From a virus: a stretch of 24,895 bases of DNA. The notes under the pieces were generated by a model, which saw nothing but the letters and a program-made list of their open reading frames with translations, had not been told where the DNA came from and did no database searches. Shown in pieces: positions 254 through 16,274 of this stretch (positions are counted from its first letter, which is position 1; each line of letters starts with the position of its first letter). The stretch covers positions 1 through 24,895 of the IMG/VR virus record IMGVR_UViG_3300017769_003220. One strand, written 5' to 3'. A program made the position numbers and the translations under genes.

Positions 254-678
254 TTCCCCAGTTCAATCACTTCCCAGCCAACAGCCGCATACCCGGCAAT
301 ATCGCACCAGGAATCGAACTTGCTGCGATCCTCCGCGAGTCTTCCAATCTTGAGCAGCACCCCGATAACTGCAATATCTTCCGGGGCCAGATCCACGCCT
401 CTACGCTCGCCCAGGTAAGCTTTAACCAGATCCACTGTTCTCTGGAAGTTAATTTGCGGATCCCCGTAATCCTGGTTTCGATCGCGGCTGACCAGCTGCT
501 CCGCCTGGTGCAGCAGCTCCAGCCTTGGCAGTGGTGCTGGTTCCGTTTCCTCGCTTGGCGGAGGAACGACTTCCAGGTTGATTTTAGGATCCGTTTCATC
601 GTATCGGAGCGGAGGCCAGTTGTCGTTGAATTCTGGTTCCGTTTGGCAGTCTTGTTTATTAGAAGGGTATGTTGTCAT
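244..678 (-). CDS. DUF6378-like phage protein (144 aa)
   Basis: The C-terminal ~90 residues carry the pattern I associate with DUF6378: an R-D-x-x-Y-G-D-P-x-x-N-F stretch (about residues 66-78), then helical segments with LAPEDIAVIGVLLKIGRLAE and a closing D-S-W-x-D-I-A-G-Y-A. The first ~50 residues are an acidic, Pro-rich, probably disordered extension. The family is common in phages; its biochemical role is not known to me, though its helical layout recalls MazG-type nucleotide hydrolases (inference only). The ATG at 678 overlaps the 3' end of the preceding gene by 20 bases, and a GGAA lies 7 bases upstream. It is the last gene of the early operon and its stop lies inside the 211-253 hairpin. 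Confidence 0.75.
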   Translation of the reverse strand: MTTYPSNKQDCQTEPEFNDNWPPLRYDETDPKINLEVVPPPSEETEPAPLPRLELLHQAEQLVSRDRNQDYGDPQINFQRTVDLVKAYLGERRGVDLAPEDIAVIGVLLKIGRLAEDRSKFDSWCDIAGYAAVGWEVIELGKRK

Positions 679-1264
679 TTTCTGGTTCCGTTTCGTTTTT
701 GTTGGAGTTGAGGTTTTGGTGATCGGTTAGCTCACTTGCTGGGAACTCTTTCTTCAGGTGAAAGATCACCTGGTTCCCAGGTTGCTGGCTGTACCAATCG
801 ATGATGTGACAAACTTCGTCCAGGGTCCAGGCGATGGATGCCTGGTCCCGGTTGACGCGCTTCAGATCCTTCTGATCCCGGACGAAGGCATATGCCTGGT
901 TCTTTGGTCCTCGGTGGAACCAGGCGTAGGGTTGGGACTGATCCATGGGTTCGTGTCCCTGTTTTCGTGCAGCCTGGTCGAGGAGCTTCCAGCCTTGTAT
1001 GAGATTGTGGGACTTCTGTTCCACCGCGTTGATGTCGTTATCGTGGATAGCGCGGTTCAGGTTTTCGAGTGCGCGTTCGAAGCGGGTTCGCAGATCGAAG
1101 GGTACGAGGGTTGGGAGCGTATCGACTCCCCAGGTTCGTTCCATCTCGCGGGCAACGCGGTCGAGCGGCGCCAGGTGCTGCGCGATCGTGGCTTGCGCGT
1201 CACGGAGCCATGCGTGGATGGGTATGGGTTTGCGGTTAGATCTTCTTCGGGTCATCGCTTTCAT
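659..1264 (-). CDS. Helical phage protein with SSB-like C-terminal tail (201 aa)
   Basis: I do not recognise the family. Residues ~10-165 are rich in Arg, Gln, Trp and Leu and look mainly helical, not like the OB fold of SSB. Residues ~176-201 are a polar, probably disordered linker ending in the acidic tail ENDNIPF. Bacterial SSB proteins end in an acidic tip with D-D-D-I-P-F that docks partner enzymes, so the similarity is notable in a replication operon. The tail codons overlap the start of the next gene (659-678) in another frame. The ATG at 1264 is the longest start; a second Met lies three codons in, and neither has a clear ribosome site. The repeat array 1284-1458 lies just upstream. 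A role in replication or SSB-partner recruitment is inference. Confidence 0.7.
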   Translation of the reverse strand: MKAMTRRRSNRKPIPIHAWLRDAQATIAQHLAPLDRVAREMERTWGVDTLPTLVPFDLRTRFERALENLNRAIHDNDINAVEQKSHNLIQGWKLLDQAARKQGHEPMDQSQPYAWFHRGPKNQAYAFVRDQKDLKRVNRDQASIAWTLDEVCHIIDWYSQQPGNQVIFHLKKEFPASELTDHQNLNSNKNETEPENDNIPF

Positions 1265-1283: not shown

Positions 1284-1458
1284 GGCGAAAGTAGAGTGCG
1301 GGCGAAAAGCGAAAAGCGAAATTGAATATCTATATTTATATAGGGGTTTACTTTCGCCTCTTACTTTCGCCACTTTCGCCTCATTTTCGCCTTACTTTCG
1401 CTTGTTACTTTCGCCCATTTTCGCCCTTCTTCGCCCTCAATTTCGCCTTACTTTCGCC
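1284..1458. repeat. Helically phased TTTCGC iteron array, candidate replication origin
   Basis: Ten direct copies related to TTACTTTCGCC occur, with the TTTCGC word (or its variant) beginning at 1352, 1365, 1374, 1385, 1396, 1409, 1419, 1429 (one base off), 1441 and 1452. Mean spacing is about 11 bases, close to one DNA turn. Four inverted copies (GCGAAA at 1285, 1302, 1309, 1316) lie on the other side of an AT-rich stretch (about 1319-1345, with TATATTTATATA). Arrays of short phased repeats beside an AT-rich element in a replication operon are typical of iteron origins bound by an initiator; the primase-helicase encoded at 2236-4362 is an obvious candidate partner. An operator or transcription-control role is the alternative. 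The rest of 1265-1734 holds only a doubtful reading frame and a terminator. Confidence 0.7.
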
Positions 1459-2235: not shown

Positions 2236-4362
2236 TCAGTTGTAGGTTCGGTGTTTAACGGACTCGACGGGTTCCGTAACGATGCGGATCCCTTTCATGT
2301 GTTTCTTTTTATTGCAGACAGCATCTTCAATGTTTCCGCGATCCAACCAGGTTTGTAGATACATCTTCGCCTGGAATGATGTCATGCCGAATTCGTTCTT
2401 CAGATATCCCATGAAGGAACGGGGCGTGTTGTTGCCGATCGAGAACGGATTCTCGGCTTCCCAACGGCGGCGGATCTCTGAGAAGATCTGCTCGACCTGA
2501 CCATCTTCCAGGTTCCGGTTGTCCTCCAGGATTTCCATGATCTCGCCGGTGCGATCCACGATGAGTCCGTTCTCTGCGCGGACCCCGTAGTGAACATCCA
2601 GGTCCGCCTGGTCGTTGGCTTTCACAACCGCCCAACAGACAGCTGCACCTTGCCCAGGCTCGAAGCCGAAATGCTTGGACAGCTGATGCTGTTCCTGTTC
2701 AGGCATAACCCAGATCGCGATGACAACGCGTGGTCCATCGACCAGGCCGGTTGTGCCGCGTATGCTTTCACGCGCCTGAGCGGCGGTGCGGATCTGAAAG
2801 GTTCCATCCTTTCTCATATGATGGGTGACCAGGACTGATGCACCGGTTGCCGTGGACAGCTCATTGAAGTTGGACCACCAAGCTTGGGCAGCTGCTGGAT
2901 CCGAATTGACATCGGCGCTGGTGAACGGCTGCAGCGGATCCTTGATGATCAAGGCCAGGTTATTAATCTTGAGCAGCTGCTCCCGGAGATCGGCATAGGC
3001 TTCTGTGGCTCGATAGGTTCCGAAGTCGTTTACCAGGAGCGGGAAGGCGCCACCCAGGTCAGGCAATGCCAGGACAATCAGATTCTCGTTGGCGCGTTCC
3101 CGGAGAGTCGGATCCTTGATGGATGCGATTCTGCGATGTACTGCATTACGAGAATCTTCTGCTGTGATGTAAACGACCTTGCCGTTGGTCAGGACTTTGT
3201 TTCCAAGGGCATACTCTTGATGCATCCCCTGGTCACCTCCTGCCACGCGGAGCGCGGTATCCAGCATTAGATAGGATTTGCCGATACCTCCGGAGCCTGC
3301 AACCAGGCCGGTGATGCCGCGTGGCAGGATCCCTTCGATGATCCATTCCAAGGGTGGCGGTTCGCCTACATAGGTTTTCAGGTAATGGTCTTCCAGGATG
3401 ATCTTTTGCCGTGGGACTTCGATGGTCTTGGCAGGCTTCTCCGGTTGAGGCTCCGATCCAGGCTCCACGCCTTGAAGAATCCGAAGCTTGCCCTGGTCGG
3501 CCTTTGAAATGAGATACTGAGCTTTCTTCCTCATCAGCTTCTCGCCGCGTCCATCGGCATCCAGGGACTGCCCTCTTGCTGCAACCTTTGCCGTGTAGGT
3601 GGGCCAGGCTTCCAGGATCAGATCATCCACCTGGGGAAGATCTCCCTTCTCAACCCACCAGGATCGGATGCAGCCCATGAGCAGCTTGGTCATGTAACCT
3701 TCGCGCCCATCGGTGTACTCGCCCCAGCGGTTTACGGAATCCGATTGGAATCCGGTGTCAGCTGCATAGTATTCATCGTTGGTTACCATACTGAGCAGCC
3801 ATTGCGGGGCATCAGCGATATCAGCGCCGCATCCCTCTCGTATCTCGTAACGTCCTCCGGAATGATGGTTTGAGGGTGTCACCACCACAAAGCCACCTTC
3901 CCCGCGTACATCGATGTCGGGACCAAGGACGTTTTTATCTGTGATTACTTTTATGTCAGGCGGTGCGCGGAAAAAGAAATGGATTCCTCCGCCGCCTGTT
4001 TTCTGTTCAATTGTTTCTGGTAGGTCTTCATTGGATAGGATGAGATCCTGCAAGGATTCCAAACCCACTTTGCCAGGGCCAACGTCAACATCTGGTACAA
4101 AGACATTGCCGCTGACCTGACCGGTTACAACGCCGATATTGTAGCCGTGGTAACGCCCGCCTGCTTCAAACCAACTTTCCAATGTATTAACAGTCGGGCG
4201 CCGATCCTGGTATTGGCTCCAAGAACGTAAAGCCGGGTGCTTACCAGGACTCCCGCAGTGCGGATCCGCGCAGCTGCAGGCTCCATCATCCATGACGAAA
4301 TGAACCGGGATTACACAAAAACCCCGGTTATGCCATCCAATGGCCCAGGATAACGAATCCAT
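2236..4362 (-). CDS. Bifunctional primase-polymerase / RepA-like helicase fusion (708 aa)
   Basis: The N-terminal ~190 residues fit the prim-pol (archaeo-eukaryotic primase-like) domain: a start resembling A-x-x-W-x-x-R-G-F-x-V-I-P-V, a Cys cluster (C-S-C-A-D-P-H-C, about residues 29-36) followed by GKHP, an acidic DVDVG motif near residue 92, and T-G-G-G-G-I-H-F-F-F-R. The central part has Walker A G-S-G-G-I-G-K-S (about residue 358) and hydrophobic strands such as VVYITAED and LALIIKDPL, as in RecA/RepA-type hexameric ATPases (AAA_25-like). The C-terminus looks like a small helical, possibly winged-helix, region. Such fusions prime and unwind at phage and plasmid origins. The start at 4362 overlaps the upstream stop as TAATG. 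With the 1284-1458 array this is the likely replication initiator. Confidence 0.9.
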   Translation of the reverse strand: MDSLSWAIGWHNRGFCVIPVHFVMDDGACSCADPHCGSPGKHPALRSWSQYQDRRPTVNTLESWFEAGGRYHGYNIGVVTGQVSGNVFVPDVDVGPGKVGLESLQDLILSNEDLPETIEQKTGGGGIHFFFRAPPDIKVITDKNVLGPDIDVRGEGGFVVVTPSNHHSGGRYEIREGCGADIADAPQWLLSMVTNDEYYAADTGFQSDSVNRWGEYTDGREGYMTKLLMGCIRSWWVEKGDLPQVDDLILEAWPTYTAKVAARGQSLDADGRGEKLMRKKAQYLISKADQGKLRILQGVEPGSEPQPEKPAKTIEVPRQKIILEDHYLKTYVGEPPPLEWIIEGILPRGITGLVAGSGGIGKSYLMLDTALRVAGGDQGMHQEYALGNKVLTNGKVVYITAEDSRNAVHRRIASIKDPTLRERANENLIVLALPDLGGAFPLLVNDFGTYRATEAYADLREQLLKINNLALIIKDPLQPFTSADVNSDPAAAQAWWSNFNELSTATGASVLVTHHMRKDGTFQIRTAAQARESIRGTTGLVDGPRVVIAIWVMPEQEQHQLSKHFGFEPGQGAAVCWAVVKANDQADLDVHYGVRAENGLIVDRTGEIMEILEDNRNLEDGQVEQIFSEIRRRWEAENPFSIGNNTPRSFMGYLKNEFGMTSFQAKMYLQTWLDRGNIEDAVCNKKKHMKGIRIVTEPVESVKHRTYN

Positions 4363-8905: not shown

Positions 8906-9073
8906 TTGATTGACACCTCAGGAACTGACAAAAAGTCGATGAGGCTCGCAATCGCAGTGTTGATCGGTATCTAACAAAATCAACTGTGGTCGGGGTGGAA
9001 GGATTCCATCCCACCGCAACCCCTTGCTATCACTGTCCGTAGATCAATACGCTGCGCTGTTGCTTGCGCTGTT
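8899..9073 (+). other. Three direct TGCGCTGTT repeats, candidate attP arm region
   Basis: TGCGCTGTT occurs at 8899-8907, 9053-9061 and 9065-9073, all in the same orientation, in the gap between the integrase and the convergent virion operon. Temperate-phage attP sites are usually next to int, with short direct arm-type repeats flanking a core, so these are candidate integrase arm sites. The core is not identifiable without the host junction. The third copy overlaps the stop codon of the giant gene. Confidence 0.4.
8992..9012. other. Hairpin in integrase/virion intergenic gap
   Basis: GGGGTGGAA (8992-9000) pairs with TTCCATCCC (9004-9012) around a GGA loop: nine pairs including one G-U. It lies between convergent transcription units and could stop either, but there is no U-run on either side. 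It is also inside the candidate attP region. Confidence 0.4.
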
Positions 9074-12000
9074 AGAATGTGATTGGCGTGAAGTCACCAG
9101 CTTTCTGTTTCTTCTTTCGCCCGCCAGCTCCCGGGTAATATTCTTCCCCGTACAACCCTTTGATGATGTTCCTGGCAACGAAGTGCTTTGCCCCGGAGCT
9201 GGTCCCGAATGCAGCAAGGGATCCTGCAATGGCTCCCCTGAACTCGATCAAGGGTCCAAGCGATTTGCCGAAACCAGGTGCTGACGCCATCAAGACTACA
9301 GCTGGTACAACAAACAGATTGTATAGCCCGGCAACCGCCTGGTATTCAGCTGCAACTGTAGACTCTGCATTTCTCACAAAAGGCATGGCTGCTCTTTGTG
9401 CGGCATCTAATATGAAACTTGGCCCGGCTCCCGTAAGAATGGTATTGATGTCGCGGTTATACTTGATACTGCGAAGGGTCTGAATGTACGGATCTAAGGC
9501 TCCGGTCAAACCAGCTCGGTAGATCCCTTGCTCGAAGATGTACTCGTACAAGCGATCATTCTCTGCTTCATCCTCCAGGCGATCCCGGTCGAACAGAAAC
9601 GCTCTGACTGTAGCAACCAGGGTATGCCCAGCATACAAAGTCAGGAACGGACCCAGCATAGCAGCGCCAACGTGTTGGGCAGCTGCAACCTTGCCTTCTG
9701 CATCCTTTCTTCGCTTTGCACCTCTTACTGCTTTTGTCAGTACGTTCCGGTGAAATGCATAAATAAAAGATTGAATGCCGTACACGATCCGCCCCAACGG
9801 ATGCTCCGCATACATGGGCCGATCCACATTCTTAGGATCCTGGATCGACTGATCAATGAACCGCATGATGGCTACAGAATAGATCTCGCCCATGTCCGAA
9901 AGGCTGCCATCCTTCTCCACCAGGTCATCGACACTAGGGAACGGATAATCGCTTGTCTTGTCTAAATCTTTCTCGTTTTTTATGGTCGGAACAAGGAACT
10001 CAACAAACTGTTCCATGTCTTCAGCTGCCACGCCAAACTCGTTGAATTGCTGCTCGGCACGCTTTTTATATTTATTCTTAGCAGCATCATCCTTCCCTTG
10101 TGGATTTTTAATCTCAAGCGCCAGCTCCCGGAAGAATTGCTGCCCCACCTTCATCACGGATCGGCGCTGTGCTGCTGTGATCCCGGTCAGCTTGATGACA
10201 CTAAAAAATCGATTAACGCGCCGTGCCAGTTTAGGATCATCCGCGAAGGATCCGCCAAGCCGGTTGGCAACCATATCACCATATTCCGGGTCATCGATAA
10301 CGCCCAGGATGTTTGCCAGCTGCTTATCCAGGGCTACCTTTTGCGCTGCATCCTTGTTCACTTTTGCATAGGCTTCGTAAAGGGATCCGGAAAACGCTTT
10401 CAGTCCATCGCGTACACTTCCGGTCTGGGTTGCAACAGTCAGGGGTTCTGCAATCGAAGACCAGGCTGCACGACCCAACAGCGCCATCGTGCCGTAGGCA
10501 TGGATGGTGTTCAGGATCTTTTGCCCTTTGATGTCGCGTACTGGACCTTGAGTCCCTGTGACGAACTGAACAATTTGCCGTATAAGTAATCGGTCATCTG
10601 GATCCACCTTGCCCACCATCTTGTCATCTAAGATGTAATCCAGGTAATCTCTGTTCTTTCCTGTTACCGGATCCTTCTTTGTGCCTTTCTCAAGGCGGCT
10701 TCGACCAAACCGCTTTTCATATTCTGCCTTCTTCACAACCTGGGGGATGTAGGCTTCGATGGCTTCGTTTACTGGCAGATAAAATTCGTTCATGTATTTA
10801 TCTGCTTCAGGCGGAAGCTTCCTGCGCTTTGTGAATCGGTTGAATGCAGAATGGGCTGCTGGATCCTGGCCTGCAGCTGACATGATTCTTTGATGCCAAT
10901 CTTGAGAACTAAGATCTGAAAAGGTGTCGGACATCTCTTCATAAAGTTCAGCATAATAATCACCCATGTTTTCCTGGATCTCGTCCATTTCAGTCTCAAT
11001 GGCATCTGGATCCTCTGCTGCGTCTAGTTGCTTTTTCAGCTCCCTCAATTCTTTTGCGTCTTTCCTAAACTTTTCCAGTAAATCTAATTTATTTTTGCGC
11101 TTAAAATGAGCTTTTACTGTTTTCCTTTTTGCAAGTTGCTGATCCAGTTTTTGAATCTGGTCATAGCTGCTGACATCCTCAAAGAAAAACTCATTTGTAA
11201 ATATAACTTCTTTGTAAAGATTATATGCCTGACTTAAAAATCCTTGGATGTCTGTTTCTACAAGCGGCATATCCAGCATCCTTGGAAGGTATGCACCATC
11301 CTGCAAATAACTGACATCGATCCCGCTTCGCCTGGCATACTCGTAAACGCGATTCAGGACAGTCCGGAGATCGCCACCAATCTTTTGTATCTTCTTGGAT
11401 ACATTCGGTTTTTGGCCTGTCAGAAAAAGACGTAAATCTTTTTGCTGCTCTTCTGTCAGATCTCGGAACTTCGCCCCTGCATCCGGACCAAAGGTTCCCT
11501 GCATTGCTGCATTATACATAGTTGCAAATCTGCGGTTCTCCCTCCGCGCACCCTCTTCAAAGGTTCCGCCGCTGAACGTGGTCCTGGTACCACCTGGATC
11601 CGTGGCAACCAGGTCCAGTATTTCTCCGATTAATGCAGCTGCTTGAGGTTCTTTTCGGTATCGGCGCTGCAGCTGCTCCAAGGTTGCACGTTTAGAGAGA
11701 AAAGGACGGCTCACAATGTAATCCATTGTCTTATCAATAAACCGCTCTGTCAGTCTTCCGTTGTACCTGGACGGGCGTTGTTTCTCTTTTTGTTCTTGGG
11801 TCAGCCCTGCTTGCATCTGTGCGCGTTGCTCTTCTCTTGCTTCTTTTGTAAAGGTAACAGGCTGAATTGGGCCGAAAAACTCAAACCCTGTTTCAATGGT
11901 GTCAGCTGTTCCAGGCATCTTGGATGGTTCCCCATTGAATACAGACTCACGGCGCATCGCGTCAAACAATTCGCTGAATGCCTTGAAGATGACATTCCGC

Positions 12001-15000
12001 TCGGATTCCTGGGGATGGGTCAACGGCAACCGGATATCGTAGTCCTTAACCTCATCCAGGGTCAGCTGATACGCATCATCCGGGAGCGTGATGAACTCGG
12101 TGGACCCGCCTGCCTTCGTTACGATATGGGCAACGTATGCCTCGAAGGCGCGGGCAAACATCTCTGTGGGTTCGCGCCAATAGTTTTTATCGGATGCAGT
12201 TCTCCGGGCAAACTCAGTCGAGTCTTTCCGGTACTGCGATTCTTCTACTCTCCCGGATCCCTGGCGCAGCCGCTTCAGCTCAGACTTGGTTCTAGCAATG
12301 GAAGCAGGCTCCGGTAGGTTAGGATCCTTCTCAAGCTTCTTGCGGTATGCAGCCTCCTGGTTCACCAGCTGCTGTTCCTTCGCCATGATCTTGGTTGCGA
12401 TCTCCGCCTGGTTGAAGAACATGGCATTAATCAGATTGCCCATCGCTTCCTGAACAGTCTCCGGTGTTTCCATCTGCCAAGGTGCAGCATCCTTCGGAAT
12501 GTTACGGATCACCTGGATCAACCCTCGGCCCTCTTTGCCGCCAAACTTATCCATCAGATGAAAGTCCAAGGCGTGGCCCCATTCATGGGCGAAGCTGTTA
12601 GGGCGCTTCGGCATGATGATGAACGGCGCTTCCATTGCCGGGAGATCGGATTTTGTTTGAACGGGGATCCCCAGCGCGTTTTCAGGATAGTATGCTGCAA
12701 AGTATCGACCCCAATCCACGCCAGGCAGCGCCAAGCCTAGTGAGCCATCCAGGCCAATGGCATCAGCTGGAAGTGCCAAGGTTGCAGTCATGGACTGCAG
12801 ATTTCTGTAGGCATCCAGGAGCGCGTTGACCGCGTCCCAGGTGTTGATGTCTGATTTTTGGATGAACTTGAAACCGAATTTATCGCGAAGCAGTTTTTCT
12901 AAAACCTTGTATTGCTTCTTTATTGATTGGTTCCGAATGACGTTGGGGTCTTCTCCTGCATCTCGGAATGCGTCAAGGAAGACGGATTCTCTTCGTTGGA
13001 GGGTAAGCTTTTCGACCAGCTCCCCGGCTTTGGTTCCCCTGGTGCTTTGAGTTGGTTCTGCGTCCTGGGGATTGACAACCGATTCAGTTTCCAGATCCCT
13101 GGGATCTTTTGGCCTGGTAGCGGTGTCATCTATTCCTTTGCTTTCAAGAACTCCTGGGCGGCTTCTCTTGCGGGTTCGTAGTTGTGCTTGTTTGCCAGGC
13201 GTATCATCGCTCGATATAGGGCTTGCTTCATTGAGGAGTTCTCCTTGCTTTTTTCCTTTTTTACTTCTTCCTTTTTCTGCATCTGCTGCTCTCTTTGTTG
13301 CCTTGGTTAAGACTTCTTCAGCAGTTACTTCAGAATCTAATCCTGGTAATGCTCCTGCTGTTTCTGCATTTGCTTCTTCAGTCAAAAACCTTAGAAGATC
13401 CTTAATGTAAGTCTGGCTTTTAACTCTGTCCAGTTTTTCATTGTGGAAGCTTCTTATAAATAGATCACGAACTGGATCTGTTTCTTTTAAAAAATCAACC
13501 TGGTCAAAATATTCTGCAGCTGTCCGTCCTGTTTCACGAAGCTCGCCAATAGTCTTAATGGCTTCTGATAAAGACGAAGCAATCCCTTTGACCTCATTCC
13601 GTATTTCCGGATCCAGGCGCAGCTTCGCAAATGCGGGAGCTGCATCCAGCAACCCGTTGCTCAAACCTTTGACGTTGTCATCTGTAGATTCGAGCATCCG
13701 CCCCAGTGTCTCTGGATCTTCGTATGCTTTTGCCAGGATTGCAGACTTAATCCGCCGCAACCCATCGACTGTCAGCTCACCATCCTTGTAGACGTTACCC
13801 TTCTCGGATGCAGGAATTTTATTTAAGAAGGCATTTACAAAACTGGAATTTTTGGCAAGCGTGAAATCGCCACCGGCGTAAAGGTTTAGTGTTGGTAGAT
13901 CAAGAACCTTGGCATCCAGGTTCGCCTGTTCCTGGCTGCCTAGTTTTGCCGTGCCGGGTTGATTCGACTCATCTGCAAATTGCTCAAGCAGCTGCGAGGT
14001 GACCGGATCCCCAGTTGCAGACTTGCCGGTCAATCTTCTGACTAGGATCGGCTTCTCAAAATTTTCTGCATCCGGAAATAACTGTTTCAGCTTTTCCTGG
14101 TATGCTTTCAGCTGTGTTGGATACCGTGACAGTTCCCCTTGCTTCTTTCTGTAAACCTCGGTCATGGTCAGCACTCGACCATTGCCGCTGATGATCGTTC
14201 CATCTTGTGCGATGATCGGTGCGCCGGTGTCGCTGGTTCTGCTGTTCTCGGTGATCTGATCTACGTCTAGCTCCTGCGCCCTTCTACGCGCTTCATCCCT
14301 GGATTCCTGTCTGCTGCGATCGCGGATCTGCAACCTACCGGTTGCCTGCTTCAAGTCTTTCAGGTCTATGACAACCAGCTCAGTCTCCAGGTCCGTGTTG
14401 CCTACGGGAGTCTTGACGTTGCTGGGTTTTGAATCTGGGACAGGGGTTATGTTTTTTGTGGGATCCGGGAGCAGCTCCGGTGCTAAATCTTTTGATGGGG
14501 TAACAGGACCAGGTTCTGTTTGTGTAGGCTTTACTGGAGGTGCTGCTATTTTTGTAAGTATTTTTTGTTCTTCTGCATCTAAAACTTTTAATACTTTGTC
14601 TGCATCTCCTTCAAAAATAAGCGCATTAACCGCTTGCCTCGCCTCTTCAAAAGAATTTTTTACACCATCTTCCAAAGTATCGTAGACATCCATTTTAGGT
14701 TGGAAAGCAAACTCTGGAAGGTCATAACCATCTAGCTTATTACCTAAAATTGGTTTGACAGCAAATTTACCTTCTTTGGTTTCTGCGTAATTAATTTGAA
14801 ATTCAAAATCTTGATACCTATCACCTTTTGGTAAATTAGGTATTTCTATTTTTTCTGAATTTTTTAATTGCGGTGCGCCTAATTCAGTTTCTTTAAATTT
14901 ATATTTTGGTAAAAATTCATCCGAATCCGCCATTGTAACCGGTTTAGATGGCGGCCTTACCGGCAACGGCTTTACTTCTGCTTCTGGCTCAACGGCTTCA

Positions 15001-16274
15001 GGCTTGACGCTATCCGGATCCGGTAAAGGCACTTCTCGAAGCTGAACTTCAGGGCGCTCTGGCGTAGGCGCAACCACTTCTTGAGTCTCGACAGATGGCG
15101 GCGTAATTTCTTCATCGAATCCTTGCGGTAGGGTTTGATCAACAGGGTCAGGCAGCTGCTGCAATTCGTTAAGGATGTCTTCCAGCTCACGGACTTGCCG
15201 TCTTTGTTTTAGCTCGATCGGCGCCTTGGCTACTTCTGCTGCAACCTGGCCTCCGCCTCGTAAGGTCATACCCGCTGTTCCGCCTCCAACGAATGCCTCA
15301 ACCAGGCGCTTCCGTAGTTCAACAGGAGATATGTCTGCACCACCTTTTTGTTCTAACAGCGCAAACAATCCTTCTTGCCCGGTTTCTGTCAGGGCTTCAC
15401 CTACACCACCTTCAACTAATCCCTTGGCGATCCGCCCAGCTGCTCTGCGATCTGCACGGGCAACCATGTTGACGATTCCCTTCGCACCGATCTTGCCGAT
15501 CAACTCACGCGGGATCCCCTTCATGATGATTCCCAAACCCAGGTTCTCCAGGACTCCGCCAATCGCACCACCTATGCCTGCCAGGCGCAGCCGCTCCTGC
15601 GGGTCCAGACCTTCAATCTCTTTCAGTGATGCATTCAGCTCCCCGGAAAGCATCAACGGAGATGCCGTGCCACCGGTAAACAAGGACAGCAACATCGGCC
15701 CGCCTGAAGTCGATATCGTGGACTGTGCGTATTCGACAAACGTCCCAAAGTCCTCAACCTCATCCAGGCTCATGGGCTGAAAGCCCATCTTCTTGACTGC
15801 CGCATCCATCTCATCTGCAGAGTCGCGGATCCGCTGGATGGCTTCAGGATCCCGGCCCTTCGTTTCAAAGTAATCTGCAACCAGGTTCCTGGTGTCTCGC
15901 AAGGTGCGCCTAAACCCATACTCCAATCCCTCCATAAAATTAATATCGCGTGGTTCTGGCTCAATCTTGGGAGGTGCGTCCAAAGTCGGCGGAGCAACAG
16001 GCGTTACCTGGGGAATGGTGTCAAGGGTCTGGCGGGGGTCTGGGACTACAGCTGGAGCAGCTGGTGGTTCTACCGGGATGACGGGCGCAAGGTCAATAGG
16101 CTCTTCAACTATCTTAGGGCGTGGATTAAAATTTTTAACAATGTTGAAATATTCATTACCAGGCTCATCAACATCATCAACCAATTGTACTGCATCTGTT
16201 TTTTCAGGCGGCTCAACAGAATCAATATCAACGCCAGAATATTTACTGGCTATTTCAAGATATTCATTTCGCAT
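9072..16274 (-). CDS. Giant polyvalent ejection-type protein with ParB-like and zincin-like segments (2400 aa)
   Basis: The position, last of the virion operon after gp14- and gp15-like genes, matches T7 internal protein gp16. Residues ~190-350 are Gly/Ala-rich amphipathic or membrane-active sequence. Pro-rich linkers occur at ~55-110 and ~390-445. Residues ~628-975 resemble the DdrB-like ParB domain of phage polyvalent proteins, with D-G-T-I-I-S-G-N-G-R-V-L (about 690-700). H1230-E-W-G-H1234-A-L-D-F is a zincin metallopeptidase motif. Long charged helices follow (about 1680-1790). The C-terminal ~300 residues contain hydrophobic segments (A-A-M-L-G-P-F-L-T-L-Y-A and F-V-V-P-A-V-V-L-M) like the end domain (LPD38-type) of podophage polyvalent proteins. 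No transglycosylase motif is visible. The start overlaps the upstream stop as TAATG. It probably enters the host with the DNA; enzyme activities are inferred. Confidence 0.85.
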   Translation of the reverse strand: MRNEYLEIASKYSGVDIDSVEPPEKTDAVQLVDDVDEPGNEYFNIVKNFNPRPKIVEEPIDLAPVIPVEPPAAPAVVPDPRQTLDTIPQVTPVAPPTLDAPPKIEPEPRDINFMEGLEYGFRRTLRDTRNLVADYFETKGRDPEAIQRIRDSADEMDAAVKKMGFQPMSLDEVEDFGTFVEYAQSTISTSGGPMLLSLFTGGTASPLMLSGELNASLKEIEGLDPQERLRLAGIGGAIGGVLENLGLGIIMKGIPRELIGKIGAKGIVNMVARADRRAAGRIAKGLVEGGVGEALTETGQEGLFALLEQKGGADISPVELRKRLVEAFVGGGTAGMTLRGGGQVAAEVAKAPIELKQRRQVRELEDILNELQQLPDPVDQTLPQGFDEEITPPSVETQEVVAPTPERPEVQLREVPLPDPDSVKPEAVEPEAEVKPLPVRPPSKPVTMADSDEFLPKYKFKETELGAPQLKNSEKIEIPNLPKGDRYQDFEFQINYAETKEGKFAVKPILGNKLDGYDLPEFAFQPKMDVYDTLEDGVKNSFEEARQAVNALIFEGDADKVLKVLDAEEQKILTKIAAPPVKPTQTEPGPVTPSKDLAPELLPDPTKNITPVPDSKPSNVKTPVGNTDLETELVVIDLKDLKQATGRLQIRDRSRQESRDEARRRAQELDVDQITENSRTSDTGAPIIAQDGTIISGNGRVLTMTEVYRKKQGELSRYPTQLKAYQEKLKQLFPDAENFEKPILVRRLTGKSATGDPVTSQLLEQFADESNQPGTAKLGSQEQANLDAKVLDLPTLNLYAGGDFTLAKNSSFVNAFLNKIPASEKGNVYKDGELTVDGLRRIKSAILAKAYEDPETLGRMLESTDDNVKGLSNGLLDAAPAFAKLRLDPEIRNEVKGIASSLSEAIKTIGELRETGRTAAEYFDQVDFLKETDPVRDLFIRSFHNEKLDRVKSQTYIKDLLRFLTEEANAETAGALPGLDSEVTAEEVLTKATKRAADAEKGRSKKGKKQGELLNEASPISSDDTPGKQAQLRTRKRSRPGVLESKGIDDTATRPKDPRDLETESVVNPQDAEPTQSTRGTKAGELVEKLTLQRRESVFLDAFRDAGEDPNVIRNQSIKKQYKVLEKLLRDKFGFKFIQKSDINTWDAVNALLDAYRNLQSMTATLALPADAIGLDGSLGLALPGVDWGRYFAAYYPENALGIPVQTKSDLPAMEAPFIIMPKRPNSFAHEWGHALDFHLMDKFGGKEGRGLIQVIRNIPKDAAPWQMETPETVQEAMGNLINAMFFNQAEIATKIMAKEQQLVNQEAAYRKKLEKDPNLPEPASIARTKSELKRLRQGSGRVEESQYRKDSTEFARRTASDKNYWREPTEMFARAFEAYVAHIVTKAGGSTEFITLPDDAYQLTLDEVKDYDIRLPLTHPQESERNVIFKAFSELFDAMRRESVFNGEPSKMPGTADTIETGFEFFGPIQPVTFTKEAREEQRAQMQAGLTQEQKEKQRPSRYNGRLTERFIDKTMDYIVSRPFLSKRATLEQLQRRYRKEPQAAALIGEILDLVATDPGGTRTTFSGGTFEEGARRENRRFATMYNAAMQGTFGPDAGAKFRDLTEEQQKDLRLFLTGQKPNVSKKIQKIGGDLRTVLNRVYEYARRSGIDVSYLQDGAYLPRMLDMPLVETDIQGFLSQAYNLYKEVIFTNEFFFEDVSSYDQIQKLDQQLAKRKTVKAHFKRKNKLDLLEKFRKDAKELRELKKQLDAAEDPDAIETEMDEIQENMGDYYAELYEEMSDTFSDLSSQDWHQRIMSAAGQDPAAHSAFNRFTKRRKLPPEADKYMNEFYLPVNEAIEAYIPQVVKKAEYEKRFGRSRLEKGTKKDPVTGKNRDYLDYILDDKMVGKVDPDDRLLIRQIVQFVTGTQGPVRDIKGQKILNTIHAYGTMALLGRAAWSSIAEPLTVATQTGSVRDGLKAFSGSLYEAYAKVNKDAAQKVALDKQLANILGVIDDPEYGDMVANRLGGSFADDPKLARRVNRFFSVIKLTGITAAQRRSVMKVGQQFFRELALEIKNPQGKDDAAKNKYKKRAEQQFNEFGVAAEDMEQFVEFLVPTIKNEKDLDKTSDYPFPSVDDLVEKDGSLSDMGEIYSVAIMRFIDQSIQDPKNVDRPMYAEHPLGRIVYGIQSFIYAFHRNVLTKAVRGAKRRKDAEGKVAAAQHVGAAMLGPFLTLYAGHTLVATVRAFLFDRDRLEDEAENDRLYEYIFEQGIYRAGLTGALDPYIQTLRSIKYNRDINTILTGAGPSFILDAAQRAAMPFVRNAESTVAAEYQAVAGLYNLFVVPAVVLMASAPGFGKSLGPLIEFRGAIAGSLAAFGTSSGAKHFVARNIIKGLYGEEYYPGAGGRKKKQKAGDFTPITF

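Follow-up and report, generated by a model that had tools for sequence, protein, structure and literature searches.

Where copying of the DNA begins is unknown for most phages, and an array of short repeats beside a replication gene of a marine phage raises the question here. The stretch analysed (the window, positions as given below) is a 24,895-base IMG/VR record and a fragment of a phage genome; integrase and repressor-like genes, named by sequence resemblance only, lie at 7.2-8.9 kb, and the phage is, judging by its sequence, temperate. An earlier note had described the array as ten direct and four inverted copies of a short word around an AT-rich stretch, and had read it as a likely origin. 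The array and its neighbouring genes are arranged as follows.

659-1264, minus strand: gene of a 201-aa protein just beyond the array, with an SSB-like acidic tip (DDEIPF in the family; here NDNIPF).
1284-1321, plus strand: four inverted iterons beyond the spacer, corresponding to the one inverted iteron of relatives.
1322-1347, no strand assigned: core spacer, reading AAACCCCTATATAAATATAGATATTCAA on the minus strand, with a conserved ACCCC box at the last iteron followed by an AT-rich part.
1348-1458, minus strand: main iteron block of ten GGCGAAAGTAA copies (operon strand), 9-13 bp apart and conserved in relatives.
2236-4362, minus strand: gene of a 708-aa primase-helicase, the proposed initiator, identified by Pfam and PDB matches.

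The coordinates confirm the description of the copies. Direct TTCGC copies (n = 10) start at 1353, 1366, 1375, 1386, 1397, 1410, 1420, 1430, 1442 and 1453, and inverted GCGAA copies (n = 4) at 1285, 1302, 1309 and 1316; the direct copy at 1430 is degenerate (TTCTTCGCC), strict TTTCGC being present in nine of the ten. The successive direct spacings are 13, 9, 11, 11, 13, 10, 10, 12 and 11, and a recount puts their mean at 11.1, in agreement with the range of 9-13 and mean of about 11 reported before. The core octamer ACTTTCGC occurs nine times in the window, compared with a mean of 0.75 and a maximum of 3 in 100 dinucleotide shuffles, and the leading 7-mer cluster of the window is GGCGAAA at about 1251-1500 (10 copies per 250 bp; runner-up 5). 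Two more IMG/VR contigs carry the array with identical spacing, which excludes an assembly artefact. The array was said to lie in the operon of the primase-helicase, and it does form one same-strand gene block with the 708-aa gene, 778 bp beyond the helicase stop codon, with three small open reading frames in between. On the evidence assembled below, the array is almost certainly the site at which DNA replication of this marine phage begins.

Conservation of the array was approached first from the word alone. A scan of 2.9 million IMG/VR viral contigs with the pattern TTACTTTCGC-N0-8-TTACTTTCGC, made without reference to any gene, returned 32 stretches, about 23 of them with dense arrays. Most of the dense arrays share one main design, which on the operon strand consists of direct GCGAAAGTAA copies, AAACCCC..TACCCC and a single inverted copy. 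All of the dense-array stretches encode a homologue of the 708-aa helicase and/or of the 201-aa protein, and contigs holding a mere chance pair of words have neither gene. Similarly, a scan for the core (AAGTAAACCCC-N0-5-TACCCC) returned 64 stretches; 47 have the helicase and/or the 201-aa gene, every one of them with an array, and the other 17 have neither genes nor array. In three of the 47 the array, made up of other or mixed words, escaped the automatic count and was judged by eye. In these pattern scans the arrays are associated almost exclusively with the helicase. Beside the helicase gene, the position of the array is thus kept in dozens of relatives, down to about 25% helicase identity, which supports the origin reading. 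Loss of the array among relatives that share the replication genes had been named in advance as grounds for refuting that reading, and the opposite was found.

A second survey started from the gene, with helicase relatives drawn from viral contigs, bacterial genomes and named phages and with any 7-mer that occurs five or more times within 250 bp counted as a dense word. Among 182 non-redundant helicase loci, such a word was present downstream of the helicase in 110 and upstream in 13; a clear downstream word was missing in 72, many of which are fragments or weak relatives. Related helicases show the word series GCGAAAGT, GCGGAAGT, GCGGAGGT and GCGGAGAT, and unrelated words occur elsewhere, namely CGTGACA in Rhizobium phage 16-3, GTTCCCA in RHph_Y3_1 and CCGGACA in Rhodobacteraceae elements. 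RHph_N65, like phage 16-3, has its array at the helicase gene but with another word. In two complete genomes, no other repeat cluster is as dense as the array (12 vs 4 copies in RHph_N65; 9 vs 5 in RHph_Y3_1). The arrays of the named phages lie at 34,936-35,132 of MN988536 (RHph_N65), about 12,936-13,125 of MN988490 (RHph_Y3_1) and about 56,250-56,600 of DQ500118 (16-3). The helicase of Wolbachia phage WO (wKue), at which no array was found, is possibly a decayed copy. Given that the same arrangement, with a word that changes with the tail of the helicase, recurs in more than 100 related viruses and prophages, it seems to be a general design of origins in phages that have a helicase of this kind.

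The spacing of the copies bears on how such an array might work. It had been claimed that the direct copies fall on one face of the helix, and in the window this holds for neighbours: R is 0.54 for a period of 10.5 bp and 0.90 for one of 11 bp, and adjacent copies are thus in phase while the face drifts along the array. Across the family, iteron spacings peak at 10-11, 21, 31-33, 43 and 55 bp, multiples of about 10.8 bp, with R = 0.61 vs at most 0.22 in random sets. Helical phasing is thus strongly supported. The AT-rich segment, to which melting had been assigned, is present in the window (A+T at 17 of 22 positions) but is peculiar to this phage; the spacer of its marine relatives is the C-rich AAACCCCNNNTACCCC, and AT-rich melting therefore does not appear to be the conserved part of the design.

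Arrays are also enriched in sites for IHF. Exact IHF-consensus sites number 14 in 74 array regions vs 1.4 expected, about a tenfold enrichment, and their density is 0.47 per kb in arrays vs 0.044 elsewhere in the same loci. In the relatives' arrays these sites keep a single orientation relative to the operon throughout. IHF-type sites (TATCAATGACTTA and alike) were seen within the arrays of L045, L047, L108, L110, L205, L206 and L211, and further in those of L216, L249, L266, L268, L125 and L028.

The origin reading accordingly draws on the convergence of the word scan, the core scan and the 110 vs 13 survey on the helicase, on the genome-densest clusters of RHph_N65 and RHph_Y3_1, on phasing and on IHF enrichment. 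Two features of an iteron origin are found, short phased direct repeats and an adjacent, co-conserved gene for the putative initiator. Against it stand the 72 loci with no clear downstream word, the lack of an IHF-like site in the window, and the GC skew, which the earlier note had suggested as a check and which lent no support: in the two complete phages analysed, the cumulative extremes lie away from the array (the window itself being a fragment).

Where the 201-aa protein is present, in the marine and related clades, the array occupies the gap after the helicase stop and sits directly upstream of the start of the 201-aa gene. An array so placed could block or drive transcription, and might be an operator at which a repressor or the helicase controls the downstream operon, with no origin function. 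Such a role is very improbable. A scan of positions 1-2300 gave no sigma-70-type promoter match, the word is not present near the repressor/Cro region (6.5-7.7 kb), and in RHph_N65 the array comes after the helicase gene and is followed by a gene on the opposite strand. Further, a set of up to 14 phased copies that also has an inverted counterpart would be unusual in an operator. Iteron arrays elsewhere also serve as centromeres, so that a partition (parS-like) site, or else a packaging or recombination site, might be considered; this is the least credible of the alternatives, as no gene for ParA or ParB was seen beside the arrays of the annotated phages and, in the lineages read, the array follows the helicase gene and not the terminase genes.

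If the array is an origin, its reader has next to be named, and the primase-helicase has three parts that bear on the choice.

3799-4326, minus strand: Prim-Pol domain (residues 13-188), from Pfam.
2803-3369, minus strand: RSF1010-RepA-type RecA-fold helicase domain AAA_25 (residues 332-520), from Pfam.
2275-2499, minus strand: predicted C-terminal winged helix (residues 622-696), the proposed iteron reader, from structure prediction.

The sole PDB relative of the helicase is RSF1010 RepA (1g8y, E 3e-17). The last ~120 residues match no Pfam family, and a PDB sequence search with the C-terminal domain gave nothing credible. The predicted winged helix has three helices and a two-stranded wing, with a core pLDDT of about 80-93. 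Assignment to a winged-helix family was attempted with Foldseek, which returned only weak matches to winged helices (lowest E-value 0.08, to the DnaD N-terminal domain), and no family claim is therefore made. One relative (L028:5226-7262) combines the C-terminal domain of the window's clade and a GCGAAAGT array with an N-terminus in which the Prim-Pol domain was not detected and which matches the 'putative DNA primase' of phage AcaML1; it looks like a primase swap that retained the origin reader.

Within the GCG-type group, the iteron word varies together with the winged helix. On a tree of 74 helicase bodies, from which the last 100 residues had been removed, GCGAAAGT arrays require seven changes, at least six of them on well-supported branches. 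A screen of all C-terminal columns for association with GCGA vs GCGG words gave residue 688, at the wing tip, as the strongest. Lys688 is found in 54 of 56 non-GCGA types vs 2 of 18 GCGA types, the remaining GCGA types having Asn, His or Arg; the window has His688. Fisher's test of this association gives p 3e-12, uncorrected for kinship. In six independent pairs, residue 688 agrees with the word in four to five and disagrees in none (p = 0.06), and a combined rule, formed after the fact, holds in all six (p = 0.03). The two Lys688 exceptions, L012 and L014, have Val at 689, and their sister L093 has Thr. The array of L093 is mixed (GCGAAAGT x4 and GCGGAAGT x5), its sister phages having pure GCGAAAGT arrays, and is possibly an origin caught in transition. 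As residue 688 had been noticed by eye ahead of the column screen, its tracking of the iteron base change is to be taken as a strong lead and not as proof.

The RepA-type body, the predicted winged helix and the association of the word with residue 688 together point to the helicase as reader. The same origin might instead be read by the 201-aa neighbour or by a host factor, with the helicase recruited secondarily, and the position of the array directly before the 201-aa gene would suit such an arrangement. This is rather unlikely, given that an array is present at the helicase in L028, RHph_N65, EBPR siphovirus 5 and phage 16-3, in which no homologue of the 201-aa protein was detected along the stretch read, and that the word covaries with the winged helix of the helicase itself.

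It is thus highly probable that the array is the replication origin of a temperate phage, bound through the C-terminal winged helix by the phage's own primase-helicase, which would unwind and prime the DNA there. For binding, loading, melting and priming at the array we infer the following course. The primase-helicase, a product of the same operon, would bind the GGCGAAAGTAA iterons by its winged helix, and the phased bound copies would allow RepA-type helicase rings to assemble on the array. The duplex would then open in the spacer that separates the direct copies from the inverted ones, where the fused Prim-Pol domain may prime.

Several known replicons share parts of this scheme. The helicase of P4 alpha is of a different family from AAA_25. 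In SaPI/PICI elements, the origin follows immediately 3' of the initiator gene, with iterons flanking an AT-rich region (PMC6092414), and the iterons are read by the C-terminal domain of the helicase (PMC7581432). The present arrangement resembles that of their Rep or Pri-Rep in having the origin 3' of the initiator-helicase gene and two iteron sets around a spacer, and in that the primase is sometimes fused to the helicase, as in the 708-aa protein. It differs in the enzyme, since SaPI/PICI have DUF927 and D5/Primase_Cterm helicases in place of an RSF1010-RepA-type AAA_25 domain with Prim-Pol, and in the host element, those systems being found in satellites and this one in whole phages. P4 alpha, in what PMC4234260 cites of it, likewise unites primase, helicase and origin recognition (the last a proposal for the phage protein) and uses iterons; its primase is there of the bacterial Toprim type, unlike the Prim-Pol and AAA_25 that Pfam finds here. 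RSF1010 has a RepA-type hexameric helicase, an iteron origin (oriV) and a dedicated primase, but divides the work among three separate proteins, RepA, RepB' and RepC, of which RepC reads the iterons (PMC4234260; 1g8y); here a single polypeptide combines primase, helicase and proposed reader, and the array comes after its gene. ORF904 of pRN1 also joins Prim-Pol, helicase and a C-terminal winged helix in one protein with the origin just downstream, but its helicase is of SF3 type and its origin is a stem-loop without iterons (PMC4234260). In its proposed mode of action the system resembles SaPI/PICI Rep-ori and P4 alpha, with a helicase of another superfamily, and it is a member of none of these groups. 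No description of iteron origins for RepA-type phage primase-helicases was found in the open-access literature.

On balance, and with considerably less assurance, we favour the wider proposal of a large and hitherto undescribed class of self-sufficient initiators, made up of the RepA-type primase-helicases found in phages and prophages. Each would read an iteron origin downstream of its gene through its C-terminal winged helix, and residues 688-689 would be the specificity switch that determines the variable iteron base, making origin and reader change together. A phased 8-10-bp word downstream of a RepA-type primase-helicase would serve as a rule for finding origins in a large group of marine, soil and rhizobial phages and of prophages. 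Other uses include a set of naturally matched readers and words on which base choice by winged helices can be tested, and candidate compact replicons for vectors; the SaPI/PICI-like layout is also seen to occur with an unrelated helicase.

Two other origin candidates in the window were considered. A hairpin origin of the pRN1 kind was rejected, the core of the window folding no better than shuffles (z -1.1); the core of one relative folds better (z -4.1), as expected from its inverted iterons. The other candidate lies at the end of the operon.

211-253, no strand assigned: outlying inverted pair of iteron words, GCGAAAGTAA...TTACTTTCGC, flanking a bidirectional terminator-like hairpin.

This hairpin sits between convergent genes (DNA folding z-score -7.2), and its arrangement with the iteron words was not seen in the relatives checked. 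A second origin is not claimed for its two GCGAAAGT copies, because one chance copy inside a hairpin would yield both.

Among the neighbouring genes, the 201-aa protein belongs to a family of about 200 aa that has no Pfam match, carries the DDEIPF tip almost throughout and is mainly helical in an AF2 model; it is a possible replication accessory protein. The window also encodes a giant protein of 2400 aa on the minus strand (9072-16274), and in L023 and L027 long open reading frames resembling its C-terminal part occur in the same neighbourhood.
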